Below are positions 2,789 through 24,772 of a DNA stretch of 64,000 nt, piece by piece (positions within the stretch are counted from its first letter, which is position 1; every line of letters starts with the position of its first letter). A model generated the notes under the pieces. The model saw only the letters and a program-made list of their open reading frames with translations. It was not told the DNA's origin and made no database searches. The DNA comes from Berberis thunbergii (lineage: Eukaryota; Streptophyta; Magnoliopsida; Ranunculales; Berberidaceae): contig QNQO01006987.1 of NCBI GenBank assembly GCA_003290165.1, forward strand, positions 682,001-746,000, given 5' to 3'. The position numbers and the translations under genes are program-made.

Positions 2789-5700
2789 TGATCATTTCTT
2801 GGAATGCATGTGGCATAGGGTGTTTCTGTGCATTCTGAAATCTAAAGTCCATATCCCTAAAGTCCAATCCAGATGTTCTCTTTATCTCTAAAATTAAAAC
2901 ACCGATAGCCAGGATGAAAAGTATTCGCAGGAGACGGGGCTATAAGTATGGAGTCCCAATTATTGCGTCTGGTCAGTATGGGGGAATCTCTTTCTTCTAT
3001 CCATTATTTCTTTCTGTAAATATTATTTCAATTGCATTTTAGATGATTATTATACTACTGGCTCTTGGTCGACATTATTTGTATATGGTGAACCAAACCC
3101 TTCCCTCTAAACTAAATTCTGGAATGACATGTCCCTTTTATATTTCTATCAAAATCTTCCTGGACTAGTCATAGGAGATCTTAATGTCATGCTACATCCA
3201 AATGACAAAATAGGGGGTAACAAACCAACTCCTATTTCTTTAACCCATTTCCGATCTTTCATAGCAGATCACAATTTGATGGATTTTCCTCTGAATGGTT
3301 CCCAATTCACTTGGAATAATAAAAGAAAAAAAAGAAATGGTATTAAAGCCAAGCTTGATCGCATTCTTGTCTCTACGGACTGGATGCAATGTTTCCTTTC
3401 CGCCACCGCTCACACCATTCACACTTCTGCCTCGGACCATAGAGCCCCCTCCTTCAACTAGCTCCAAATTTATGTCCAAAGAGTCCCAAACCTTTTAAGT
3501 TTTTTAACATGTAGACTAGAGATCCTAGATGTCGTCACCTTGTTACTACCTCTTGATCTCCAAGATATCATGAAGCGCCCACTCGTAACTTTCATCTTAA
3601 GTCCGATCAACTTAGTTGGTCTCTCTCCCATAGGAATAAACTTGAATTCCATAATATTCAACTCAATATCTTGGAGGTTCGCGCTGCTTTGGAGCATCTG
3701 CAAACCGAACCTCCATCTAGAGATAATGCCATTGAGGTCCTGAATGACTACTTCTCAAATGTTTTCAACTCCTGTGATCCCATTTCTAACCCTGATATTT
3801 TGTCTCTCTTCTCTCGGCAATTTCTGATGATGAGAATTCGACGATTCTGGCCATTTCATCCAAACAAGATATCTAGAAAACTAACTTTGACTTCGGGAGC
3901 CGCAAAGCCTCGGGCCCTGATGATTTTCATTTTTTTTCTAATATTAATGAAAAATTGTTAAAAATGATGTCGTGGAAGCTGTTCAAAATTTTTTTGTCAC
4001 TCATGAAATGGATCCCAAGTTAAATGAAACTTATATTGCCTTGATCCCTAAAGTTGGCAATCCCATCTCTCATGACAAATTTGTACCCATTGGATTTTGC
4101 AATGTTATTTACAAGGTGATTTCTAAAACTCTTGCAAATCGCTTTAAAACCTTCCCCAAACTAGGGAGCCTTCCTTGGAGGTCGATCCATAGCTGATAAT
4201 GTCAATCTTGCCCACAAAACCTTTTTTTAGATGAAATACTTTCGCAAGAAAAAACAAGGTTTGATGGCTATCAAGATTGATATGGCTAAGGCCTATGATG
4301 AGTTGAATGGAAATTATTGCTTCAATTGCTTGGTAAACTTGGATTTTCAGCAGGCTGGTTTCAGATGATCTCCCAATGAATTTCTACGACCTCGCTCTAG
4401 GTTCTCCTTAATGGATCCTTTCTCCCCTATCTTTCCCACAAGAGGCCTTAGATAGGGTGACCCCTTTCTCCTTATCATTTCATCCTGATCGTCGAGGCTC
4501 TTTCTCGTCTCCTTGGGCTGGCGGAGTCCGACAATATCATCAAATGCATTAAGATCAGGCGTCATGCCCTTTCGATTAGTCATATTTTATATGTTGATGA
4601 TCTTATGCTCCTTTTTTGTGCCACCCTTGCTGAAACACACGCAGTCAAAGATATCATCAAGATGTACTATCTTGCCTTGGGCCAGGACATCAATTTTTCT
4701 AAATCATCTGTTTTCTATAGTTCAAATGTTCATCAACATCATGCTAAAATGATAAACAAAATTCTTGGGTCCAAATTCTACAATCCTAAAGACGGATATC
4801 TCGGACCCCCTCTCATTCTTTCTAAGCATAAAGGCAAAAACTTCCAATTTCTTGTGGATAAAGTGAAGGACAAACTTTGTGCTTGGAAGTCTAAAGTTCT
4901 TTTTCAAGCCAGGATAATGGTCGTGCTCAACTCTGTCCCAGTTTATACCATGCACACTTTTCTTCTCCCTCGATCCATTTCTAAACAACTTGATAATTTA
5001 GCCTGAAACTTTTGGTAAAATGACACCATGGAGAGTAAATCCAAACACCTTTGCACTTGGAATCGCATTTTCCAACCCCACGTCTTGGGTGGTCTTAATA
5101 TTTCTAGTTCTAGGAACAAAAACCTGGCTCTTCTCGCTAAAAGTCTGTGGCAACTCTTATCTTCTTTTAGTGATGCTAGGACTCAACAACTGAGAGCTCT
5201 TTATTTCTGCACCCTTAGCCTTTCTCAGATCACCAAAGCTCCTGCCATTGCGTCTTTTGCTTGGAAGGGTAACTTCTCTTCCCTGAAGATGATGACACAA
5301 CATTTACTCTGGCAAGTTTGCTCGGGGTCTTCCATTGATTTTTGGCTGGATTGTTGGGTTAAACCAAGTCTAATCCTTTCGGAGTGCATGCGTGACTCTT
5401 TCATTCATGATCTCCCTTCTAACATCCCTGACTTTTGGCTCATGGACCACGAGGCTAGACCTCGCTGGAATTTTGACCTTATCCTGGGTTCAATGGCCAC
5501 AGACATTCCTCATATTGTAATCCATTATTCGGATTCCCCATACTCCCTTATTTGGATTTTTAACAAACTCGGGAATTTTACGGTCAAGAGTGTGGTCAAA
5601 ACTTTCTCCAGGCCTTCATCTGTAGGTTCTACTTCTACCTCTACTCTCCATCTCATCACTTTCGAACACAAGAATTTTAATGATCTTTGGAGGATCAGGG

Positions 5701-6497
5701 CCCCTCAGAGTGCTCTTTTTTTGCTTTGGAGTATTTCCCAAAATCTTCTGCCTACCAGAGCCAACTTGGTTAGACTCCATACTCCAATCGTTGATCTTTT
5801 CCCTTTCTATAGCAACCATTTTGAAGATGTGGTCCATTTGTTCTTTCTCTGTCTGATTATTCATCATCTTTGGCGAACTTCGATGACACCCATTGACTGG
5901 CAAGCTGACTATTTCACCTCACCTAGTATCCCTTGCTTTTTTTAATTTTATGTGGAAATCAGCTAAAGCCCACCCGAGAGCTAAAAAAGAAATGTTCTCA
6001 CAATTCGTTGTCTTTCTCAACACTATTTGGTACACTAGAAACAATTGTGTGTTTAACAAACACAGTTTTAGCTCGACCAAATTTGTTGTTGATCTTCACA
6101 TACCTGGAAATCTTGGTATCACACATGGTTTTCTAGTCCACTTTGCCCGTCCTTGAAACCCATTACTATCCATAAACTGATTGAAAATGCTATCACAAAC
6201 ACTCGTCCTTGTCATCCTAGGGTTACAACAGATTTTACTGCTGATCCTTAGTTTGGACCTCTCACAAAATCTACCCATTCTTGCTTGGAGCTTATCACAG
6301 CCCAAGTCCTTTGTGCCACAAACCATACCCTGAATATAAATCTTGGCTCTCCTCATTTTCTCCCTTTCCCTCAAGACACCATTATTGTTACTTATGATGC
6401 CAGCTTATTGGCCATTTCCAAACAGGGAGCGATTGGAGTTCATGCGGTAAATCTACAAGGTGAGGTGGTAGCCATAGTGGCCAGCCCTATTATATGA
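2789..6497 (+). pseudogene. LINE ORF2: endonuclease, reverse transcriptase, RNase H
   Basis: The frame opens with MIISWNACGIG at about 2789, the typical start of the plant LINE apurinic endonuclease. Endonuclease segments follow at 3129-3461 (GDLNVMLHPNDKIGG; FTWNNKR; KLDRILVS). Reverse transcriptase pieces lie at 3990-4190 (YIALIPKVGNP; ISKTLANRFK), 4260-4310 (IKIDMAKAYDE) and 4585-4620, where the catalytic YVDDL box is intact. The zinc-binding RT-associated region occupies 5028-5945 (WRIRAPQSALFLLW). An RNase H-like segment at 6380-6490 starts VTYDASL. The pieces fall in several frames, so the gene has multiple frameshifts and stops. A C-terminal RNase H is known in a subset of plant L1 elements. 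Confidence 0.75.
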
Positions 6498-7234: not shown

Positions 7235-7326
7235 ATTTTTGACAAAAAATATTTATAAAAAAGTAGAAGTTGTAAGTCATTTTTTCCCAATAAAATGCGG
7301 AAAGAAGAATGGAGTAATTTCCTATA

Positions 7327-7467
7327 GAGCAATGCTAGCTGTCGAGGGAATGGGCGAGGAAAATAGCAAGGGGAGGGCGGTGGAGGGGGGGACCGTCCTT
7401 CCCCTCCCCTCCACCGCCCTCCCCTCGCTGTTTTCCTCGCCCATTCCCTCGACATTTAGAATTTCGC
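7327..7467. mobile_element. MULE-type MITE, copy A (141 bp foldback)
   Basis: The element is a near-perfect palindrome. Its GTCGAGGGAATGGGCGAGG arm at 7341 pairs with the complementary arm ending at 7453, around a C/G-rich loop. The 21-bp termini begin GAGCAATGCTAGCTGTCG (left) and GCGAAATTCTAAATGTCG (right, read inward). It is flanked by identical 9-bp direct repeats TTTCCTATA at 7318-7326 and 7468-7476, the duplication length diagnostic of Mutator-like insertion. The first bases resemble the TIR start of the MULE at 8166. Confidence 0.8.
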
Positions 7468-7945: not shown

Positions 7946-8103
7946 GAGCTTGGCAAACTGGCGAGGAAACCAGCGAGGAAAATAGCCAGGGAGGACCCTC
8001 CATCCCCCTCGCGATGCGTGCTTCCCATCCCTGCACGCATAGCGAGGGGGATGGAGGGTCCTCCTCCTTCCCTCGCTGTTTTCCTCGACAATTAGAATTT
8101 TTG
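7946..8103. mobile_element. MULE-type MITE, copy B (158 bp foldback)
   Basis: The arms GGCGAGGAAACCAGCGAGG and (complementary) TTTTCCTCGACAATTAGAA enclose an inner inverted pair around GATGCGTGC. The element is flanked by identical 9-bp direct repeats ATCTCTTTT at 7937-7945 and 8104-8112, again the Mutator-type length. The right terminus read inward, CAAAAATTCTAATTGTCG, matches that of copy A. The left terminus is more diverged. The element lies 53 bp outside the target duplication of the large MULE. Confidence 0.75.
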
Positions 8104-8165
8104 ATCTCTTTTTAACTTCAAAACTAATCACAAATCAAGAAAAGAAAAGAGAAACAAAAAATTAT

Positions 8166-8926
8166 GAGAAATTCTAGCTGGCCCGTCCCATGGGACGGAC
8201 GCTCCCAGGCACGTGCCTTTGGGAGGGCGTCTCGCACGTGGAGGAGGAGAAACCCACTCTTACCAAAGTTTTTTGTTCTTCAGTTCTTCACTTCAGCTTC
8301 AGTTATTCACTCTTAAGCAAAGCAAAGCAAAAATTTCAGTTCTTCATCGACTCCTCCTCGCCTCCTCGACGAGTCATCTACTCCTCATCGACTCCTCGAC
8401 TCCTCCTCCTCGACCGCTCGACTCCTCGACTCCTCCTCCTCAACCGCTCGACTCCTCGACTGCTCCTCCTCCTCACGCCTGCTCCTGCTCATGCTCCTCC
8501 TCGGGCCTGCTCGTGCTCCTCCTCCTCCTCGCATTGCTCCTCCTCCTCCTTCTTCTGGTATGTAATTTCAAACTCTTTTTGTTTAACTTGAAAATTAGGG
8601 CTAATTTTTATCAATTTTTAGTAGCATAATTTCTGATCAATTTGCTTTGAATGTCGATAAATTACAATTTTTGATCAATTTTCACCATCATCAGATAATC
8701 CTGCATATTTATACCCTGAAATTATGCTACTGAAATTTTTGTATGTTGAAATTTCTGTATGTTGAAATTATGCTATTGAAATTTTGTTCAAATTTTTGTA
8801 TGTTGAAATTTTTGTATGTTCATATTTTGTTAAATTATGCTACTGAAATTCATGATAATCCTGCATAATTTTTGTTAAAAAAATTGATTTGTTTAGATTT
8901 TGTTAAATTTATTTTTTGTATAAATC
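8166..8926. repeat. MULE left TIR (about 760 bp)
   Basis: This arm is the inverted counterpart of 14209-14937. Shared blocks are the terminal CTAGCTGGCCCGTCC, the GGCACGTGCCT palindrome, a CTCCTCGACTCCTCC-type simple tract, and an AT-rich inner part with repeated GAAATTTTTGTATGTT motifs. A splice-donor-like CTTCTG|GTATGT near 8553 is conserved in both arms, which suggests that both element genes begin with a 5' exon inside the TIR. The transcription start itself was not identified. Confidence 0.85.
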
Positions 8927-9008
8927 AATCATAATTTTAGCGTAGTTGTAAAACATTTCAAAGATTACATATCTGATGATAACTACTCCTTTAATAGGTA
9001 TATAATGG

Positions 9009-11134
9009 ATGGATAGTGTAGAAGATATTGAATTGATGGAGAATGAAAAAAATGTAGAAGAGATAAGGGATCCTACAGAAGGGATGAAATTTAGCGACAT
9101 TGATGAGTACAAACGTTATTATTATGATTATGCCTATAAAAAAAGATTTCCAGTGAAAGTAAAAAATATAGAAAAAGATGAAAATGGAAAAACTATATTC
9201 TTAATGCTTGCATGTGGTCGGTTTGGGCAGCATAGAAGTCAATCACAAAGTGTTATAAACATGCGGGGTACAGCTAAATGTGGATGTATGGCTAAAATTA
9301 GAGGTAAAATACTCTCTGATGGTGATGTGTTAGTGACAAAAGTAACAGTAGCTCACAATCATGAATTGGGCCCCGACAAATCAAAATTTTATCCGAAAAA
9401 TAGAGTTATGAGCTCATATGCGAAGAAGAAGCTAGATTATAATGATAGGGCAGGTATTAGGCCAAATAAGAATTTTACTTCATGTGTGGTTGAAGCTGGT
9501 GGTCATGATAATTTGCAATTTTCTCAGAAAGATTGTTACAATTATCTGGATAAAATGAGGAAGTTGAGACTTGGGGAGGGGGATGCGGAGGCCATTCATA
9601 ACTACTTCCAAAAAATGCAAGCTAACAATGCTAATTTCTTTTATATGATGGATTTGGACAATAAAGGGAGATTAAGAAATGTCTTTTGGGCTGATGCATG
9701 GAGCATAGCAGCTTACAAGGAGTTTGGAGATGCTGTTACCTTTGACACTACATACTTAACGAATAAGTATGACATGCCATTTGCTCCATTTGTTGGGGTG
9801 AACCATCACGGTCAGTCAATTCTTTTGGGATGTGGATTGATATGTGGTGAGACCATTGAAGAGTTTGTTTGGCTTTTCAAAACTTGGCTGGTGTGTATGA
9901 ATGACAATGCTCCGACCGCAATAATCACTGATCAAGATAGGGCAATGAAGAGAGCCGTTGAAATTGTATTTCCCAACACACGACACAGATGGTGCTTGTG
10001 GCATATTATGAAGAAGTTGCCTGAAAAATTATCTGGTTACAATCAATATGAGGCAATAAAGTTTGCAATGTAAAGAGCAGTTTACGATTCCTTGTCTCAT
10101 GAAGAGTTTGAAGTAAATTGGCATGGTTTCATTGAGAAATATTGTCTGCAAGAAAATGATTGGTTGAGAGGATTATATCTTGAAAGAATGCGTTGGGTGC
10201 CAACATATCAAAGATCTACTTTTTGGGCGGGGATGTCTTCAACTCAAAGGAGTGAAAGCATGAATGCTTTTTTTGATGGTTATGTAAATTCGAAGACCAC
10301 TTTGAAGCAATTCGTTAAACAATATGAGAATGCACTACGAAGTGAGGTTCAAAAGGAAGCTGAAGCAGACTTTAAATCGTATAACCGACTGATCCCTTGC
10401 ATTACTCCTTATACAATAGAGAAAATATTTCAAACTGCCTACGCTACAAAAAAAATTTAAGGAGTTCCAACACGAGCTAGCAGGGAATATATGTTGTACA
10501 ATAAGTAGTAAAGTTATAAATGAAAGTGGCTTTGAGGTATACGTTGTTAGACAAGACTTGGTGATAGGAGATAAATGACGTTCAGTCAATTTTATAGTAA
10601 ATTTTAACGTTGGCGACTTCAATATCAAGTGTAATTGTCAATTGTTTGAATTCAAGGGGATCTTATGCAGACATGTATTGAAAGTGATGCTTGAAAGCCA
10701 TATTCATGCTGTAGCAGATAAATATGTTCTTCGGAGGTGGAGAAAAGATGTGAAGAGGGCTCATAGAAGGGTTAAGATTGTTTATTCAGATTGGGGAATG
10801 AAGCCTGAAAGTGAAAGGTTTGACAAGATGTGCAATCACTTCTATGAAATGGCCGACTACGCCGCTGAGGATGAAAAGAAGACATGCCAAGTTCATGAAT
10901 GGATCAATTTGAAAATGGACCAACTCAAAACTGATGATGGTGATGAGGGTGTTGATTCACATGGGTTTATGGAATTTGGGTCCAACACTACTAGTTCTGG
11001 GATGCAATCCAACCTTCACAGTCCATTACCGGTTCGTAGCAAAGGCCGGCGCTCTAATTCAAGGATGCAACCCACAGATGAAAAGATTCGAAAAACATTA
11101 CAAAGGAAAAAAAAAGAAACAAGCAAAAAATGTG
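9009..11134 (+). pseudogene. FAR1/FHY3-type MULE transposase, broken
   Basis: The ATG at 9009 follows an acceptor-like AATAG|G. An out-of-frame ATG at 9005 stops after three codons. The order is a FAR1 DNA-binding domain (residues about 25-135; F-S-DIDEYKRYYYDYAYKK, ending HNHEL), the MULE DDE transposase (about 205-350; FDTTYLTNKYDMPFAPFVGV, then ITDQDRAMKRA and HRWCLWHI), and a SWIM zinc finger (about 10630-10690; CNCQLFEFKGILCRHVLKVM). The lesions are an in-frame TAA at 10071-10073, a one-base frameshift in the A-run at about 10449-10455, and a TGA at 10576-10578. A donor-like G|GTATGT follows at 11135, and a possible 3' exon with a CxxC pattern lies near 11209-11277. FAR1/FHY3 proteins in plants derive from this transposase class. 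The long TIRs and TSD favour a transposon gene over a host FRS gene. Confidence 0.85.
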
Positions 11135-11277
11135 GTATGTTCTGCAATATGTTTTATTTGAATATTTAATTACTTAAGTCTAGAATATTTGACACGTGTC
11201 ATTTGTAGGGTTGTTCCCAATGTGGATTCGAAGGATCAAAATATTTGACACCGCATTCAATAAATCCAAATACCCAG

Positions 11278-11695
11278 GTTTGTTTTTAATATATTTACTG
11301 ACGCGTAACTATCATTTATGATTGTTTACTTATGATTTGTATTTGTGGACTTCAAGGATGAAACAATTGTGTCACAATCTGGTGCATTATCAAGAATGAA
11401 TCATATTTATTCGCTCCTCTCACAGGTATTGCACTTATGATTTCCTAATATTGCAGTTATTTTGCAGTGCAATTCTTTATTATTTATTTAGTTATTTATT
11501 TTGGCAGACACCAACTTCAAACAACGACATGGAGTTGCCAGACTATAGCTGGTTGTGAATTCAAAATGTTTTCAAGTAAGGTTAGTTTCTTGTTCTTCCA
11601 AGTTATTTAGTGGCTACCTTCATTTTTATGGAAATTTCCAGATACTCTGTTATTTCTCTCCCTCCAAACTACCCAAACTATGTCATGTAATATAG
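11278..11695. other. MULE interior, non-coding or degraded 3' exons
   Basis: This is AT-rich interior sequence of the MULE. It may include short 3' exons or the 3' UTR of the transposase gene, but I could not assign any exon with confidence. Confidence 0.3.
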
Positions 11696-11854
11696 CAGAA
11701 ATTCTAAGTGTCGAGGAAATGAGCGAGGAAAGTGAGGTGGCGGGTGTGGGAGCCATTCACCCCACTCGAGATGCGTGCATTGACTTTTCGCGCACGCATC
11801 CCGAGTGGGATGAGCGGGATGCGTGCATTGGGACTTTTAGCGCACGCATCCCTT
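11696..11854. mobile_element. MULE-type MITE, copy C (incomplete), inside the MULE
   Basis: The left terminus CAGAAATTCTAAGTGTCGAG matches the inward-read right termini of copies A and B. The interior has the same GAGGAAA and GATGCGTGC hairpin motifs. The inner hairpin unit (GATGCGTGCATTG...CGCACGCATCCC) is present twice in tandem. No CCTCGAC right terminus follows, so the right end appears to be deleted or replaced, and no target duplication can be shown. Confidence 0.55.
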
Positions 11855-12838
11855 AAGCATTAGTCTTTACATGGTCATCATGATATGAAGCTCAAGTTTT
11901 GTTATGCCATAAGCCATCATGTATTGTTGGTTTGATATCATATACAAAAGCATGAATTGACAAGGGTTACAAAAGGAAAATTGACAGTGAGAAGTTGAAA
12001 TTCATGAAAGGCAGATCAAAACTGAAAATACAAAGAAGTTGCAGAAGTTGCAGAAGTGAAATGTCACCAATACAAAGAAGTTGCAGAAGTGAAAATACAA
12101 AACTGAAAATTCATAATGAAAATCTTGTGTTGCATCCAGTTACTGTCACCAATATTATTCAGTGAAATGTCAAGTTCTTGATGAAACCCCATGACATTCC
12201 ATTCAAATTCCCATTCCATGAGATCAAGTTATGTATGATGTTCATGTCTGATTTTTTTTTTTTTTTGGCAATTTCTTAGAAATACTTCAGTTCGTTATGA
12301 GCAAATTATAACCGTTTCATTTTGTTTTCTAGACTCGGGGCTCGATGTGGATGAATTGCTCGAAAGTGTAGCTATTCTGCCTCTTGTCAATGCACCTAAT
12401 TATCTTAGGCACTAATGATGGATGAAACATTTACAAAGATACAGAAAGAAGAAGAGGAGGTTTCACCGTGTAGCTTCAGCAAGGATACAAGATTAGAAGA
12501 AGAGGAAGAGGAAGAGTCCTGCTAGCTACCTTATCACTCCTCTGGAAAGAAAGGAGCGACATAATCTTTAGAGACATCAAAAAAGATCAAGAGCATCTCT
12601 TGTTTGGCATTGGGGATCAGTGAAATTGATTTCCATGCAGTACTGGACTATTTTAGTCAATCTGTAATAGGCTTTAGGTTCTTTTGTTGCTTCTTATGAC
12701 CTCCCCAGTCACTTCCTGTTTGTACTCCTTATTTTTTCTTCTCAATATATTGCCAGCTTTCGAATGATAAATGAATCTTTAAACATTAGTTCAGTGGTGA
12801 ATGATCCAGCCCTTGCCAATTTTTATTAATGTTTGATA
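11855..12838. other. MULE interior without clear coding sequence
   Basis: This is interior DNA of the MULE. Short GAAGTTGCAGAAGTGAAAAT repeats occur near 12035-12085 and a poly-T run near 12251-12266. Possible fragments of 3' exons near 12330-12410 could not be assigned. Confidence 0.3.
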
Positions 12839-12982
12839 TGTATTGACAGAGCACTAACACTAACAGAGAATACTAATACTAACAAATTTATTGACAGAGA
12901 ATACTAGCACTAACACTAACAAATTTATTGACAGAGAATACTAATACTAACACTAACAGAGCACTAACAAATTTATTGACAG
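12839..12982. repeat. Short tandem repeat (ACTAACA / TTTATTGACAGAGAATACTA)
   Basis: A unit of roughly 50 bp containing TTTATTGACAGAGAATACTA and repeated ACTAACACTAACA occurs about three times. It lies inside the MULE between its two convergent genes. Confidence 0.6.
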
Positions 12983-13242
12983 ACTCTGACATTTTGTTGC
13001 TCCTTCGCCTATCATGGTCTTTGTTCTAAGGTTCCTGGCCTTCACTGCTTCACTAGTACAATATGAAACACTAGTAATAAGGCAAAGCTTTACAAAAACT
13101 CTATACACACTAAAGAACAATATGAAACACTTGGATTGGATTACGAAATAAATTCACATAAAACATATTTATGTACATATTACATTACACATCATTATGT
13201 GCCAAAACAGTGTTAGATTAGGATAAACAGTGTACTTCAGTT

Positions 13243-13646
13243 TCAAATACCATCCAAAAGCTTAAAAAAGATAATTACAAGAATAAAAAAAACTACCACT
13301 AATACACTGTTGATTAAGTCCCTTGTAAAAGCCCAAGGACCCTCAAGAGCATTATTTGATTGGTGGACTACGTCTTCAGTGCCGTTTGTTCTTGCCGGGT
13401 GCTCTCTTCTCGCCTCTTGCTCTCTTCTCGCCTCTTGTTCTCTTTTCGCTTCATGTTCTAATCTCGCTTCGTGTTCTAATCTGTTCTCTTTTGATAGCTT
13501 CCACATTTCGTAATCTTCATAAGCTTCTTCAACTGACCCTTGTACGTAAAACCCTTGTATCCATTAACTTGTAATGCGCAACCTGGCCAAGTCACATATA
13601 CTCCAGGAACACGCCCACGATAAACAACATAAGCTTTGTATGCCAT
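13243..13646 (-). pseudogene. Antisense MULE ORF: viroplasmin/RNase H1-N-like domain, coiled coil, C-terminal membrane helix
   Basis: Reading leftwards from the ATG at 13646-13644, the N-terminal part reads AYVVYRGRVPGVYVTWPGC and continues ALQVNGYKGF. This matches the pattern of the Cauli_VI/RNase H1 N-terminal domain (YVV-GR-PGVY-TW-C--QV-GYKG), a small RNA:DNA-hybrid or RNA-binding fold. One frameshift near 13530 separates it from EEAYEDYEMWK, the usual domain end. About 30 residues of Glu/Arg/Ala-rich heptads follow (repeats of REQEAR), then a hydrophobic helix (VLVVVFFILVIIFF) close to the C-terminus, like a tail anchor. An acceptor-like CAACGCAG immediately precedes the ATG, so a 5' exon in the right TIR is possible. 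The ORF lies wholly inside the MULE, convergent with the transposase. It could be a captured host gene or a standing second gene of the family. Confidence 0.65.
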
Positions 13647-13659
13647 TCCTGCGTTGACA

Positions 13660-14208
13660 ATGAGAGAATGTTGTTGGTTTCAACTTTCAAAAGGGTTTTG
13701 TACAAAGTGAAACAAAGACCTCTTCCTAAAGTATTCTATAAGGCACTTGGTACAACTAATATATGAAAATGATACCCAAACCATTGATTGAACTATAAAT
13801 CCAACAAACCTTACTACGAATTCATTATCCTTAGGAGAGAAATTAATTAAATCAAATCATTGACACAACATTTGCTTAAAAACAAAACAACTTAAAATGC
13901 TAGGAAAAAGAAGCCCAAATTATGTAGTCATTCTTGAAAGACAACAACAATGTACAATTCACATCATCAAAACAATATCCATTCCTCTAATTGCACTACC
14001 AATCATCAAAACATAGAAAAACAAAACAAAAAACATAAAAATCAGGCTGTTCTGACTTTCTTTCAAGGGAGCAAAACAGATGAACGACATCAGAACTTGC
14101 AGAAATCAAACTAAAGGGTGATGAAATCAGAGAAAACTAAAACACCCCAAAACTAAAATACCCCAAAGCATTATTGAATCCATACATACAAAGGGTTAAT
14201 AGCAAATG
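13660..14208. other. MULE interior between antisense ORF and right TIR
   Basis: This is AT-rich, intron-like sequence with no coding signal. If the antisense ORF is transcribed from the right TIR, this would be its first intron (inference). Confidence 0.35.
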
Positions 14209-14937
14209 GATTTATACAAAAAATAAATTTAACAAAATCTAATCAAATCTATTTTTTTTAACAAAAATTATGCAGGATTATCATGAATTTCAGTAGCATA
14301 ATTTAACAAAATTCGAACATACAAAAATTTGAACAAAAATTTCAGTAGCATAATTTTAACATACAAAAATTTCAGTAGCATAATTTCAGGGTATAAATAT
14401 GCAGGATTATCTGATTTCAGGATGATCTGATGATGGTGAAAATTGATCAAAATTTGTAATTTATCGACATTCAGAGAAAATTGATAAAAATTGATAAATA
14501 TGCAGGATTAGCCCTAATTTTCAAGTTAAACAAAAATATGATGTGAAATTAGATACCAGAAGAAGGAGGAGGAGCAGTGCGAGGAGGAGGAGGAGCAGGA
14601 GCAGTCATGAGGAGGAGGAGGAGCAGGAGCAGGTGCGAGGAGGAGTAGTCGAGGAGTTGATCGGTCGAGGAGGAGGAGCAGTCGAGGAGGAGGAGTGGAG
14701 GAGTCGATGAGGAGTCGAGGAGGCGAGGAGGAGGCGATGAAGAAGAGAAATTAAGGCCAAGAAGAGAAAAGTTTACCTGTTTGTGAAGAACTCCCCCTGC
14801 GACTCTAAGGGAAGGCGAAAAATTTCTCTCATTTGGATTTCTCCTCCTCCACGTGCGAGATGCCCTCCTAAAGGCACGTGCCTGAGAGGGTTCGTCCCAT
14901 GGAACGGGCTATGAGGACGGGCCAGCTAGATTTTTCG
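14209..14937. repeat. MULE right TIR (about 729 bp)
   Basis: This is the inverted copy of 8166-8926. It holds the same AT-rich ACATACAAAAATTTCAGTAG block, the GAGGAGGAG simple tract, the GGCACGTGCCT palindrome and the terminal GGACGGGCCAGCTAG. The splice-donor-like sequence conserved with the left arm is oriented towards the antisense ORF (near 14553, - strand). It ends about 330 bp upstream of the ATG of the carboxypeptidase-like gene. Confidence 0.85.
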
Positions 14938-15069
14938 AAAAATTATCTCTATCTCTTTCTTTAAACCAAACAAAAACCAATTCCCCTTTCCTTTTGCTTT
15001 GAAGTTTTAAAGAAGATCCAGATTCACGTGCACCATCTCTCTCTATCTCAACAGAATTTTCGGGTTAAC

Positions 15070-15100: not shown

Positions 15101-15513
15101 ACCAACACCTCCCTCCATTATGCAACAACCATTTTTTTTTGTTTTTTTAATCTTTGGGCGAGTGTTTTGAGTGAGAGCTCTTCCTCTTTCTCTCTCTCAC
15201 ACTCAAAACTTAGTATTATTGATTTTATTTTTTTGAAATTATTTTGTAATTGCAATAGTGAACAATGGGTAGGTGGTGGTTTAGTGGATTTTGTGTTATG
15301 GAGTTAATGGTGTGTTTTATGATGTGTGGTGTTTATGGGCACCCAATGGAGGATCTGGTGGTGAGATTGCCTGGTCAGCCCAAAGTGGACTTCAGGCAGT
15401 TTGCTGGGTACGTTGACATTGATGAGAAGGCTAGGAGGAGTTTGTTCTATTATTATGTGGAAGCTCAAGGAGGAGATGCAAACAACAAACCCCTCACTCT
15501 CTCGTTGAATGGA

Positions 15514-17806: not shown

Positions 17807-19003
17807 TTACATATCACGAGGATCGATGACACCATAACAGTCATCTTCATTGAGATCAACTGTTTGATCATCTTCTTCGTCTTCTTCAGCTTCATCAGAA
17901 CATATCTGTGACAAAGTTTCAATGAGCTGAGCTCTGGTTGGTTTGGTCTTGATCTTCTGTAGAATCTGCTGCTTCAACTGTTTGATGTTGGAGGATGATT
18001 CTGAAGGAGGACCTATTGGGACATTTGGTGTAGAAGACACCTCTTTTTTGGAGAAGAAGGCTGTTACACCTTCTTTGGTAACCTTAGAATGGTCAAACCT
18101 TTGCCACCATTTTACTTTGTAGCGCCGGCACAACCATGAAGGTTTTGATTTGGAAAGAGCACCTGGAGCATCGGGGTTGGAACATACATAATCCCAACAC
18201 ATAATCCAGGCAAGATTGAAACGAATAAAGAACCAGATTGACAGAACCTGTTGATCAATAGGCTCAGGAGGCTGGTAATTTTCACGAAAGATATTCCATC
18301 CTTCTCGAACTGGAGATGGAAGGATATCAAGAACTGGACCAAATGAGCTCCACCATTGATGTTGGAACCAGAATGGTAGAACTTTGGCATTGAATTTTTT
18401 ACAAAACAGGAAGAACCAAGAATGGCCTGATTGATGGGGACTTATAAGAAATGCTCGAGTCCAAGCATTCTTATAATCATAGTAGCTATAAGTTTGGGGA
18501 ACATAGCTCTGTGAGAGCCTCTTGTGGAATCGAGGGTGTTGATTCCATTCTGCTTCAGTCAGAACTTTGAAAATCTGACATTTGGAAAAAGTGATTCGAG
18601 TCTTAGTCTCATCATAGTGATGAGTAACAGAGATCGAATCAGAATCTACCAGAATGAATTCATAAAATTCTCTGGTTTTGAAGGCATCTGTTTCTTCATA
18701 TTGTTGATCTGAAGAATACAGATTCCTGGCAATTGCATAAGGATCAGAGAGAAGAACTCTGAATTGAGGTTCAACAATACCTAACAAGTCTAGGTTGGTC
18801 TTGTTGATATATTGAAGAGGTGCCTGATTAGGCTTTGAAAAACTTACCAGAGATGATAGCTCTTTGGCTTGATCAAGAGCTGAAAATTTCTGGGTTAATT
18901 GAAGGGCATAAGAAAGAGGGGCTGGCTGCAAAGAAGCAGAAGGCGTCTTTGCATAGCTTGCCTTTGATTTGGGTTTGGGAGATGAGTTAGAAGAAGAACT
19001 CAT
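17807..19003 (-). CDS. Caulimovirid ORF2, unknown function
   Basis: An intact 398-residue frame starts at the ATG at 19003. Its ATG overlaps the polyprotein stop by four bases (ATGA), which fits translation by termination-reinitiation. The N-terminus is Ser/Pro-rich and low complexity. The middle is rich in Trp, Tyr and Phe (WNQHPRFHKR, FWFQHQWWSS, WLCRRYKVKWWQRF). The C-terminus is acidic (DEAEEDEEDDQTVDLNEDD). I recognise no enzyme motif. Position and character match the second ORF of florendoviruses, whose role is unknown to me. It is notable that this frame has no stop while the polyprotein has two lesions. Confidence 0.75.
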   Translation of the reverse strand: MSSSSNSSPKPKSKASYAKTPSASLQPAPLSYALQLTQKFSALDQAKELSSLVSFSKPNQAPLQYINKTNLDLLGIVEPQFRVLLSDPYAIARNLYSSDQQYEETDAFKTREFYEFILVDSDSISVTHHYDETKTRITFSKCQIFKVLTEAEWNQHPRFHKRLSQSYVPQTYSYYDYKNAWTRAFLISPHQSGHSWFFLFCKKFNAKVLPFWFQHQWWSSFGPVLDILPSPVREGWNIFRENYQPPEPIDQQVLSIWFFIRFNLAWIMCWDYVCSNPDAPGALSKSKPSWLCRRYKVKWWQRFDHSKVTKEGVTAFFSKKEVSSTPNVPIGPPSESSSNIKQLKQQILQKIKTKPTRAQLIETLSQICSDEAEEDEEDDQTVDLNEDDCYGVIDPRDM

Positions 19004-22000
19004 CTTTGAAGGAACTCACGGGAGAGAAAGCCTGCCAGTGAGTTGTCTTGTCCCTTTATATATTTGATATCAAAATCAAATGCAGAAATCAAGCCTTGCC
19101 ATCTGGCGAAAATCTGTTTGGAAACCAAATTTAAAACATCTTTAGTTAAAATGTCTTTTGCAGATTGGCAATCAATTTGTAATAAAATTTTTTGATTAAT
19201 TAAATCATCTTGAAATTTCATGATGCACAATACGATCGATAAAACTTCTTTTTTGACCGTAGAATAATTCATCTGGGTAGAATTCCAAATACCTGAATGG
19301 TATCGGACTAATTGGATAGTATAAGACTGGGGTAGACGCTGTTTAAGAATACCACCATAACCATGATTGGATGCATCTGTTTCTACTATTTTGAAGGCAT
19401 CGGGATCAGCAATTCCTAGACAAGGAAGACTTTTGACTTGACTTTTGACTTGGCGGACTATGGAAGTATGGGCTTCAGTCCATGGACCTGGGTTTTTCTT
19501 AAGACGATTGTACAAAGGCTTAATTAAAACACGGAGGTCTTTATAAAAATCTGCTACATAATTTAAAGATCCAAGAAATCTTTGTAATTGGGTTTTTTCC
19601 CGGATTTCATCTGGAAATTTGTCAGCAAATTCAATTGTTCTTGAAATTGGGGTAATCATCCCATTGAAAATCTTATGACCTAAAAATCTTACATTTGTTT
19701 GAAACAAATTGATTTTAGTTGGAGATAAAACCAATCCATTCTTCTTAATACAATTTTCAAATTGATATAAGTGTTTCCAATGTTGGGGAACACTTTCAGA
19801 GAACACCAGTATATCATCGATATAAACAATGGTGAATTGCGAGAATTGAGAGAGAATATCATTCATGATATTCTGGAATTCACTAGGAGCATTTTTGAGA
19901 CCGAAAGGCATAACATTCCACTCGTAATGTCCAAAAGGAACATTAAAAGCGGTTTTATACCGATCTTTGGGATGAATCTGGATTTGCCAAAATCCAGATT
20001 TAAGATCAAACTTAGAGAAGACACAAGCATTGTGTAGTCTCTTAAGAAGATCTCTCTGAGAGGGAATTGGATATCTAATCCATTGAAGAACTTGATTTAA
20101 AGGTTTATAATTTATCACAAGACGAGGACTTCCTCGTTCAAGTTCAGCATTTTTATTTACATAAAAAGCAGCACAACTCCAAGGAGATTTAGAATCTCTT
20201 ATGAGTCGTTTTTCTTTTAAAGATTGAATTTCTTGTTTACAAAATTCCATAAGTTCACTATTCATTTGAATAGGACGAGCTTTAGTGGGAATTTTTCTTT
20301 CATCAAATCCTGGTTCATAAGGTAGTCGAACCACATGCTGAGATCTATACCAAAATGCATTTGGGAGATTTGAACAAATTTCATCTTGCAAATGTTTTTG
20401 ATATTGATTAATTTGTGATTGAAGTTTAGGTTCTTGGATTTGATTAGCAATCCTTTTATATTCAATTTCATGTTTCAGAAAGTTTAACTGCTGGGTTTTG
20501 CAGATTAAACGGTTTAGAAACTTCTGCTTACTAACTTGGTTAAGTTCATAAGCTGTTGATGAGAATAAAAATGGAAATTCAAGTTTGGTACCAAGAATGG
20601 TAGTTGAAATTCCTTTTCTATCAACTGAAAAGGGAGAGATTGCATTGATAAAAGGAGTACCTAATATCATTTTTTGTTCCATATTTTTGACAAGAAGAAA
20701 ATGTTGCTTAATGCAAATGTTCTTTTTGCAAATATGGGCATTGGTTAATTTAAAAGAAATTTGGAGTTTTGAATTATCTGTAGTATACAGACTTTGCGAA
20801 GTTTGTTGAAAGTACTGCGTAGGCACTACTCCTTCTTGAATACAATTCATATCAGCACCTGAGTCTATCAGTGCAATAGCTGATATGGTTGTTTGATTAT
20901 AAATGTTTAAGGTTATAGCCACATACCATTTTTGAATGGTAACCACGTGTGGTGTAACCGGTTTCTTATTTAAATTACAGAGAAAATCTGCATGTTTTTG
21001 TTTGGATGAAGAAGGTTGTGGTGAAGAGATAACAGGAGTTATTTCTTCTTCTTGTCCAGACAAAACAGGAAACTGATTTTCTTGTAACATTTGAATTTGA
21101 AGGTCAGTTAAATTTTGATGTTGTTTTAACTGATTAATTTCTTTCTTAAGATTGTTAACTTCATGTTGTAAATCAGAAAGATTAACAGGAGAAGCATTGT
21201 GTTTTGTTTGATTAAACCTGTTAATGATTCCACGATGATCATAGAATGAAGTGATAACATCAGGTGTAGGTTTAGTTTGTGAAATTGATTTTTTTATGTG
21301 TTGAAGATATTCAGTCTTCATTTGAGGGTCATCAATTTTATCAACAAAATCTAACAGTATTTGAGACTGCTTATTTTGAGATAACATATTGATTTTTGGT
21401 TTAGCAGAGAGGTGGCATAAACATGCACCTGGAGTACAATCACAAGATTGTTCAGAAGAATCAGAAGAATCAGAAGAATAATTAAGATTATGCATCTGAA
21501 AGTCTGATTCAGAAGAAGAATCAGATTCTGAGTCAATCAAACAATTAAGAAATATATGTTTTATGTTTTTGGGAAGATCAAGGGCTTGGACTTTTTGAGC
21601 CGTTCTGCACTGTTTTGCATAATGGCCGGGTTGTCCACACTTGAAGCAAACAGGCTTTGAAGTGGATCCTTTTTTAAAGGGCTTGGACTTATGTGTCCCA
21701 TGTTTCTTGGGCTTGCTAAAATACTGTTCAAGTGGTTTAGCAGGCTTTGGGCCATAAGGCTTTTTCTTTTTAAATTGTCGGGCCGGATTGGACCGATATT
21801 TTTGCTTGGATGTCCAATGGGCTTTGGAATTTAAATGGGCTGGATAATGAAAATCATCAAACCCATATTGTTGGCAAAAATCACCTAATTCTTTAGGTCC
21901 AGTAATGTGCTGTTTTCTTAATTGTTTCTTTAATTTTAAATCATTACATATTTGAAGAGCACATTTATTAATAAACGCAATTAAATCACCAAATGTTAAG

Positions 22001-22356
22001 AGCTCGTACTGTATGTCACCTCCATGCTGTTCTTGGAGTCTAGTACGAACGGTTTCAGCAAAGATTTCAGGAAGGCCTGAAATGAACTTACGTTTCCAGA
22101 ATGGATTTGCTGCATCAGTCTGAAGCATAACTCTTTTCATGAAGATATCTTTGTAATATCTAAAATGACTAAGAGTTGGACACTTATGAGACATGAGCAA
22201 ATCTTTAGCTTTACCTTGATATTCATTAGGATTTCCTAAGAAATGTCTAAGAATACTTTGAATTAAGGTAGGCACACTATCAGAAACGAAAGTTTCTTGA
22301 CCAAGATCATTCTCAACCTTGATTGGGTTTCCATCTGGACCAATTTTTTTTAGCAA
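19000..22356 (-). pseudogene. Caulimovirid polyprotein, 3' part: coat protein/zinc knuckle, protease, RT, RNase H
   Basis: This 1,118-residue open segment is continuous, with no internal stop. The coat protein C-terminal part contains a CCHC knuckle at residues about 233-246 (CFKCGQPGHYAKQC), preceded by a Lys-rich stretch and followed by an acidic Ser-rich one. The pepsin-like protease motif LIDSGAD is at about 492. The reverse transcriptase has KFDLKSGFWQIQ and the catalytic YIDDIL at about 843. RNase H begins near ETDASNHGYGG at about 988. It joins the upstream coat-protein part by a one-base frameshift in an A-run near 22349. The stop overlaps the ORF2 start. It is classed as a pseudogene because the whole polyprotein is interrupted, though this segment's catalytic residues are present. 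Confidence 0.88.
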
Positions 22357-22954
22357 ATAAGATTTCTGATTTTTCAGAAGTAGTGAGATAATTATCCCAC
22401 CATCCTTTGATTAAGCCGGAAAATCCTTGAATAATGATAGATGCAATGGTATGATCATCTTTGCCTTCTGCTCTATGAGTAGAGGCCATCATCACCATTT
22501 CTTGAGTTAATTCAAGAATTGCATCTTCACTAACGCCATCAATATTCCAAATATACAATTCTTTTGTTGAAAAAGAACCAAAGGTTTGAAGATTTCTTTC
22601 TTCAAACTGCATGTCTAGGAAAGAAGGTCTAGGGTAAAAATTCCTAGAAACTGGCATTGGATTTTTCCATTTTGGATGTTTTGATGCTGTTTTAGCATGT
22701 CTGATGGGGTTTGCCTGATATGGAATATAATTCAAACGATCCAATTCAGACATAGGATCAAAACCAGCACTGATGTCTGAATCACAGTCAGTCATGGCTG
22801 GATGAGACAGAGTATTGATACTTAATCTTGAACCCAGTTTTAGAGCATCTAATTTAGCATCAATTTCTTTTAATAAATTTGTTTTAGAAGAAAAGGTGTT
22901 TGGTGCCAAGGGTTCAGGAATTTGAAAGTAAACATTCTGTTTCTTTTGTTCCTG
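22313..22954 (-). pseudogene. Caulimovirid polyprotein, coat-protein N-terminal part
   Basis: This open segment continues in the same frame as the movement-protein segment after a single in-frame TAA (22955-22957). It contains a helix-rich region (IWNIDGVSEDAILELTQEMV, then GFSGLIKGWWDNYL) matching the start of the caulimovirid coat/gag-like domain. It ends where the frame is lost in the A-run near 22349 and continues in the neighbouring frame. Confidence 0.75.
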
Positions 22955-24574
22955 TTATTTGGTAACTTTTTCTTCTAATTGCTTCTTTTTTAACTCATTG
23001 GTGACGAGTTGGTCTTGGACCAATTTTTCACCAAGTTCAGAAAGAAGAAGGTTAGTATAATTATTTTGATGAATAATTGTACTAACATAATCTTCAGTTT
23101 GATGAGAAAAGGGTGAAGCAATATATTGTTTGTCAGAAACTTTAAATTGAAGGTCTACCATTGGAGGTAGAACGGATCTGACCGTTTTCTTTTCTGGGTG
23201 ATTAGTCCAGATTTTTGGAGTAATATTTAAAACATGAATTTGAGGAATGTAAATATTATAATACCAGTCTAAGAAAGGTATGTTTTCTTTAAGTTCCTCA
23301 CAACATGCATAAAATGGTTTATTTAGTTCTCTGCGTTCAGATTCAGAAGTCTGAGCAATGAACTTTTCTCTTCGTTCATCATTTTCTAGAGATAAGAAAT
23401 CTCTTTTAATTTTTTCTTTGTCTAATTTAAACACTTTTGATAAAGCTTGAACCCTAGGAATTCTGAATTCCATTTCAGATTGTGTAGGGGATTGGTTTGC
23501 TTCAGAAGTCTCAGGGACTTCATCTTGATTATAAACCGGTTGAGGAATTTGAGGATAATTAGGATTGTTCCTAATATTCCTTAATTGAAGATGAGGAATC
23601 ACTTCAGGAGTAGAAGCTCTTGAAGGTATTCTAGTTGGAGCTGTTCTGAATGAAGATTCAGATCTTCGTCCAGAGTCAAATTTGGAAGGGTCAAAAGTAG
23701 TGCTTCTGTCATTATTGAATCTTAGTTCAACAGATCCATCAGGGAATGATAGAATTCTGTCGATCTCACTTGGAATAAGTTTCTTAGGGTTTAAAACTCC
23801 TTCAATGATCCATGACTCAGGGAGAGTAACCTGATCCCATTTTATCGTTCTGGGAACAATAACATTAGTTTTTTGGTCATTGACCTCAAAGAGAGTAGTA
23901 TGACCTCGATCATCAATTTGTATAGCACGTGGCTTTAATTGAGTTTTCATTGCTTTATAAGTGATTTTATAAATTAAAGCAAATGGTTCAGAACCTTCAG
24001 CCATATCAAAGCCTGAAGTCTGAATATTGAGAGTGAGTGTCTCGAGGATGTGTGGATCACAAAGAGACACAGAGAAGTCAGGGTAACAGTTAAAATAAAC
24101 TGGACCCATTGAAAGTGAAGACTCTGCAATTCCAAGCAGAGAATCATTGAATTTATTGTGTCTGCAGTCGCGAAGAGCAACCAAGGCACAATTGTCAAGT
24201 CCTAACCTAGTTAAAGGTTTTAGGGCTATTTGAATTAATCCCAAGTGGAGATACTTGTATTTTTCTTTGATTAAAGACTGGATTGTTTGAAAATTGAGTA
24301 ATTGCTTTGAATCTAAGGATTTATTTATCGGTACTGTTTGTTCAACAATACTGATTAAATCCTCAGTTTTTTGAGAAAATAAAGATTTAGTAATTTCATA
24401 AATCTCTTTTTGTGGAATTACTGGTATAGACCAGTTTTGTAAATCTTGTTCAACTTCAGAAATTCTACCTTCCATTTTGGTTGGTAAACTGTTTGACCTA
24501 GAACTAGAAGTTCTGGAAAATTTTGAAAACAAAGACATCTTTTCAAAATTGCTTTGAGGATGGGTAAGGAACAC
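22955..24574 (-). pseudogene. Caulimovirid polyprotein, movement protein (30K-type) part
   Basis: A 539-residue segment starts near 24574; the next in-frame ATG (KMSLFSKF) is 12 codons in. Residues about 100-290 resemble the 30K-superfamily movement protein, which moves the virus through plasmodesmata (LGLIQIALKPLTRLGLDN, LRDCRHNKFNDSLLGI, YFNCYPDFSVSL). A Pro/Ser-rich linker and a Lys/Glu-rich C-terminus (EKLVQDQLVTNELKKKQLEE) follow, then the in-frame TAA at 22955-22957 that interrupts the polyprotein. Confidence 0.78.
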
Positions 24575-24772
24575 TGTACTCGGACCACCTACAGCTGGAC
24601 CATCTGAATGGGACCACCTAACCTAGATCTCGCTAGCGCTCACCATGGCGACTTACACTGGATCTTGGTTCCTAACGGCTGACCAACATTCTATGCGACT
24701 GACCAACGCTATCAACGGCTGACCAACAGTACCTTGGACTCACTAACCTTCCCGGGGCAAAAAAGAAAAGGA

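Follow-up and report, generated by a model that had tools for sequence, protein, structure and literature searches.

The question raised by this locus is whether a FAR1-type MULE carries, on the strand opposite to its transposase, a second gene converging on the first, and, if so, where this partner gene came from and what its product may have done. The window, that is, the whole stretch of 64,000 nucleotides of DNA that was analysed, contains the element within the following boundaries.

8166-14937 (+), 6772 bp: whole FAR1-type MULE, with a TSD on each side and inverted ends
8157-8165 (no strand): left copy of the 9-bp TSD, AAAAATTAT, identical to the right copy
14938-14946 (no strand): right copy of the 9-bp TSD, a perfect match to the left copy
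8166-8925 (+): left TIR, about 760 bp, aligned with 14205-14937
14205-14937 (-): right TIR, about 733 bp, aligned with the left TIR

The first-pass annotation had described a MULE with clean ends, and the 9-bp TSD AAAAATTAT flanking 8166-14937 confirms this description. As a control, 200,000 random pairs of window positions were searched for a 9-mer that both places have in common at a distance of no more than 8 bases. Such a 9-mer arose in 517 of the 200,000 pairs, so that the TSD of the MULE is unlikely to be a product of chance. The alignment of the two TIRs has 667 ungapped columns, 609 of which agree (91.3%), with 58 mismatches, and a further 159 gapped columns. TIRs and a TSD of 8-11 bp are among the features by which FAR1/Jittery-type MULEs are recognized, and the element has both, its TSD being 9 bp long. 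No second copy of the MULE or of the partner gene is present in the 64,000-nt window. At 29152-29063 on the minus strand, a stretch weakly resembles the catalytic region of the transposase of this MULE (37% over 30 residues, E 0.004) and is perhaps another decayed MULE.

The assignment to the FAR1 type was also found to be correct, as the transposase pieces on the plus strand match the Pfam families FAR1 (PF03101, E 7.6e-12), MULE (PF10551, E 1.6e-34) and SWIM (PF04434, E 3.8e-8). Among 2722 candidates in a protein collection, 1689 relatives of the transposase were obtained at E<=1e-10; the best match listed is a Cannabis sativa protein with 58% identity over 95% of the query. Since the transposase is closest to plant proteins among the matches listed, the window is considered to be plant DNA. 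The coding region of the transposase consists of the following parts.

9009-11134 (+): main exon of the transposase, broken, starting with ATG 9009 and matching PF03101, PF10551 and PF04434
about 11209-11277, 11357-11425 and 11509-11557 (+): tentative and uncertain 3' exons of the transposase, with GT/AG borders placed by eye

Two stops, at 10071-10073 and 10576-10578, and a frameshift near 10450 interrupt the main exon. These three count as breaks because the plant relatives P0001, P0003 and P0103 run through them. When the first 3' junction was tried, the reading stayed open but left the frame that carries a CxxC motif. The first two acidic residues of the transposase are 62 apart, as are D337 and D399 in the published description of Jittery, and the third follows 108 further on, against 110 in Jittery, by hand count (PMC9569675).

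An intact small antisense ORF with a Cauli_VI/RNase H1-N-like domain had been proposed for 13243-13646, opposite to the transposase. The domain was recovered in a Pfam check, so that the lack of a PF01693 match, which the first-pass annotation had named as a refutation, did not come about. The stretch is not one open frame: at about 13536, within the domain, the reading frame shifts.

13479-13646 (-): partner frame A, 56 codons from ATG 13646; residues 4-37 correspond to positions 1-34 of the 44 of PF01693
13246-13563 (-): partner frame B, 106 aa, with the end of PF01693, a charged E/R/A repeat and a hydrophobic C-terminal stretch; stop after 13246
13536-13538 (-): frame change inside the PF01693 domain, located from frames A and B and from the read-through match
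13400-13467 (-): tandem array of 18-bp repeats, 3.8 copies, encoding charged repeats of 6 residues

Frame A matches PF01693 (RNase H1 N-terminal/Cauli_VI, 'viroplasmin') with 42.0 bits and an E-value of 1.1e-10, above the gathering cut-off of 21, and the stop-to-stop version of the same frame, taken straight from the window, reaches 41.4 bits. Reading across the frameshift with two X extended the match to 42 of the 44 positions (48.6 bits, E 9.5e-13); with one X, the match stopped at position 34 (41.3 bits). As frame B begins to fit at about 13536 and the read-through match lengthens, it is concluded that the PF01693 domain is split by a frameshift at this point. The position of ATG 13646 coincides with the natural N-terminus of the domain. 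What is found at this locus is the frameshifted remains of a partner gene, seen in one broken copy.

The length of the open frame is weak evidence for a gene, because the strand opposite to 13243-13646 also holds a stop-free frame, of 89 aa. Of 5000 dinucleotide shuffles of 13243-13646, 0.28% gave a stop-free frame as long as 106 aa. A chance open frame that never had a coding history would draw on the low-complexity 18-bp repeats, which open frames on both strands, but the PF01693 domain is more than chance by its two E-values, with and without reading across the frameshift, and this explanation is extremely improbable. It is also very improbable that the frameshift is an assembly error and that the partner is intact in the plant. 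The single frame change does adjoin simple sequence, but with the transposase interrupted at three places as well, a dead element is the simpler view.

Downstream of the domain, a Glu/Arg/Ala coiled coil and a hydrophobic C-terminal part had been proposed. The coiled coil is doubtful, as the 6-residue repeats have no heptad pattern when read by eye, and on the same reading the stretch looks more like a charged single helix. The hydrophobic C-terminal part is borne out by its composition, with a mean Kyte-Doolittle value of 2.83 over the best 19 residues.

Whether the partner could have been expressed depends on what precedes its ATG. The same splice-donor-like site was said to face inward in both TIRs, and indeed the identical 12 bases TTCTTCTGGTAT were found at 8550-8561 (+) and at 14564-14553 (-). 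As they occupy homologous positions of the TIRs, the two are one ancestral site and not two independent signs. Two introns may be proposed from reading the sequence.

8558-8997 (+): possible intron in the 5' UTR of the transposase, from donor-like TTCTTCTG/GTAT in the TIR to acceptor-like AATAG
13649-14556 (-): possible intron in the 5' UTR of the partner, from donor-like TTCTTCTG/GTAT in the right TIR to acceptor-like AACGCAG

The acceptor-like site ending at 8997 precedes ATG 9009 of the transposase, and the AACGCAG ending at 13649 lies two bases before ATG 13646 of the partner. With donor-like sites shared by the TIRs and acceptor-like sites before both ATGs, a convergent two-gene layout is plausible. 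For comparison, cDNAs of TED and Jittery are described as having a 5' UTR that starts in the TIR, with an extra upstream intron in Jittery (PMC9569675).

One break was found in the partner, in about 0.4 kb, and three in the main exon of the transposase, in about 2.1 kb. By these counts the two look about equally decayed, the numbers being too small for a test. A two-gene layout with a once-coding partner is considered probable. It is nevertheless quite possible, if on balance somewhat improbable, that part of a host gene encoding an RNase H1 N-terminal domain was captured once, in the manner of a Pack-MULE, and never functioned in the element. MULEs are described as often carrying host fragments (PMC13317346; PMC2528002), other odd pieces are present in the surrounding MULE interior, and a single copy is known, with no full-length relative in protein searches; yet an ATG opens the partner directly behind an acceptor-like site, its stop follows a tail that looks complete, and its decay does not exceed that of the transposase. 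A later nested insertion around the partner was rejected, as none of the 7 inverted-repeat pairs in 11560-14204 brackets 13246-13646 as the ends of an insert.

In a search by sequence against solved structures, three sequences match the partner at E<=0.01. The closest are the hybrid-binding domain of yeast RNase H1 (1qhk, E 6.2e-6) and its human counterpart (3bsu, E 2.4e-4). The likeness consists of the sequence match and of shared core residues, as Y6, W20 and K36 (partner numbering) are common to the partner and both structures. In human RNase H1, Y29 and K60 are reported as hybrid contacts, to the DNA backbone (PMC7657459). Y29 is kept as Y6 of the partner, and K60 is aligned to G37, located at the frameshift (human numbering counted by hand). 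In contrast to RNase H1, the partner has no catalytic domain, its place being taken by the charged repeat and the hydrophobic tail. The RNase H catalytic domain is absent, according to Pfam, from both partner frames and from the 27 of 28 MULE interior ORFs of 45 aa or more that the scan covered, 20 of which have only sub-threshold Pfam matches. Judged from its domain, an intact version of the partner would likely bind hybrids or dsRNA; hybrid-binding domains are described as binding hybrids and, more weakly, dsRNA (PMC7657459).

A cellular rather than viral source of the PF01693 domain appears rather likely. Viral P6 and cellular domains are united by Pfam in one family (PMC7102451), and a candidate for a viral donor lies 2.9 kb beyond the MULE.

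17810-24622 (-): caulimovirid-like endogenous provirus, with matches to movement protein, coat domain, zinc knuckle, protease, reverse transcriptase and RNase H

The domain might thus derive from a P6-type gene of a caulimovirid and not from a cellular RNase H1, but the six provirus pieces scanned are without PF01693 at E<=0.01, and the last ORF shows none at E<=10. This last ORF, of 402 aa, has no significant match in Pfam. Because PF01693 does not appear in the scanned pieces of the neighbouring provirus, a cellular source is favoured, not proven, and a pararetroviral source is regarded as very unlikely.

Relatives of the partner were sought in a protein collection that includes plants, the searches covering proteins of about 75-238 aa sharing exact words with the query. 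None of 401 candidates matched the read-through protein at E<=0.01, and none of 10 candidates matched residues 1-60, the domain part, at E<=10. That neither search found a relative argues mildly against a widespread, well-annotated partner gene, an outcome weakened by the frameshifted query, the length limits and the poor annotation of transposon genes. PF01693 is named as a domain in none of the 120 transposase relatives listed, the best 120 of 1689. The PF01693 domain found no relative in 55 stretches of viral contigs, a search that was not plant-targeted and says little; the transposase alignment, in a search that was likewise not plant-targeted, found none in 54 stretches of viral contigs and 61 of genome contigs.

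Among the systems to which the element can be compared, Jittery, TED and the plant FAR1-type group 36 (Jittery group) share its FAR1, MULE and SWIM domains and its 9-bp TSD. Group 36 appears in Table 1 of PMC6446971 with one ORF, TIRs of 39-292 bp and no mudrB, whereas the TIRs of the element described here are about 750 bp long and enclose a second coding region. With its PF01693 region, it departs from the single ORF of plant group 36, the listed ORF number being descriptive and not a strict definition. Antisense second ORFs (PMD) are given in the same table for MuDR-type groups (PMC6446971). The putative convergent layout of the element, in which each gene would start in a TIR, resembles that of MuDR, with mudrA and mudrB. 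The element differs from MuDR by its FAR1/Jittery-type transposase, and its partner shows PF01693.

The ULP1-carrying MULEs (KI-MULEs), too, have a further coding region on the downstream side of the transposase. A ULP1 coding region is reported at this place in Jittery-like MULEs of grapevine and melon, and ULP1 within MULEs was found in both orientations (PMC2528002). No Pfam match to ULP1 (PF02902) was obtained in the MULE interior, where the scan covered 27 of the 28 ORFs of 45 aa or more. Besides its FAR1-like gene, a mobile element of kochia contains three other predicted genes, and PF01693 is annotated in none of them in the account given (PMC6808082). Outside RNase H1, a PF01693-like domain occurs in ANKLE2, for which the authors annotate transmembrane regions (PMC11103583), but ANKLE2 is an animal scaffold protein and no transposon gene. 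Like the partner, the viroplasmin gene capE of Pleurotus ostreatus combines PF01693 with a location inside a DNA transposon, in this case a fungal Helitron (PMC4289320). Searches of the open-licence literature yielded no earlier description of a FAR1-type MULE with a PF01693 partner. The novelty claimed in the first-pass annotation is to be narrowed to this partner, since a second coding region, ULP1, is known from Jittery-like MULEs.

The best explanation of the locus as a whole, tentative but close to an even chance, is a dead FAR1-type MULE that had two converging genes at insertion, with the captured domain as an accessory. When it inserted here, the element, now dead, would have carried both genes. 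Each TIR would have supplied the promoter and an untranslated first exon for one of them, and splicing would have joined this exon to an acceptor shortly before the ATG. In the partner protein, about 136 residues long, a hybrid-binding domain of the RNase H1 type would have been followed by a charged helix and, at the C-terminus, by a membrane anchor; the PF01693 domain would have been acquired from a cellular RNase H1-type gene. The accessory gene may have been kept until about the time of insertion, and have died thereafter. Least certain is the function, in which the domain might have bound RNA:DNA hybrids or dsRNA derived from the element, for instance hairpin RNA formed by its long TIRs. 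If the bound RNA was held at the membrane, the element might have been shielded from small-RNA silencing, as other MULEs carry anti-silencing genes.

A caulimovirus protein with this domain reportedly acts on the DRB4 and RDR6 pathways, according to titles of papers cited in PMC3759858. Long TIRs have been linked with siRNAs (PMC6446971), and VANC of MULEs is described as anti-silencing (PMC6446971; PMC13317346). These observations, together with the binding properties of the domain, make a silencing shield the leading guess for the role of the partner, at low odds; that this was its role, rather than, for instance, that of a transposition co-factor or none at all, is unlikely. It is more doubtful still that there is a lineage of FAR1-type MULEs with a dedicated gene, driven by the right TIR, for a membrane-tethered hybrid/dsRNA-binding protein that shields the TIR hairpin RNA or R-loops of its own element from small-RNA silencing, as a convergent counterpart of the suppressor role of caulimovirus P6.

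Recurrence of the partner in other MULEs of the FAR1 type would make these elements two-gene systems, comparable to MuDR and VANDAL, instead of one-gene elements, and the second gene would encode an unexpected nucleic-acid-binding protein. It would also bear on the survival of long-TIR transposons under RNA silencing, and on what was lost when the domesticated FHY3/FAR1 transcription factors left the transposon. As a lone dead copy, the partner is of little importance beyond annotation.

Minor features were observed in the interior of the MULE and in its neighbourhood.

12239-12620 and 11610-11756: inside the MULE, short peptides resembling the ends of a host gene or LINE by eye, with no Pfam match at E<=10
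11691-11813, 7956-8103 and 7323-7465: small hairpin-like (MITE-like) repeats, the first inside the MULE and the others just outside its left end
4461-5942: remains of a LINE-like retrotransposon, with a weak RVT_1 match below the cut-off and a zf-RVT match above it
15262-15498: start of a serine carboxypeptidase-like gene (PF00450, E 3.2e-7), about 320 bp past the right end of the MULE
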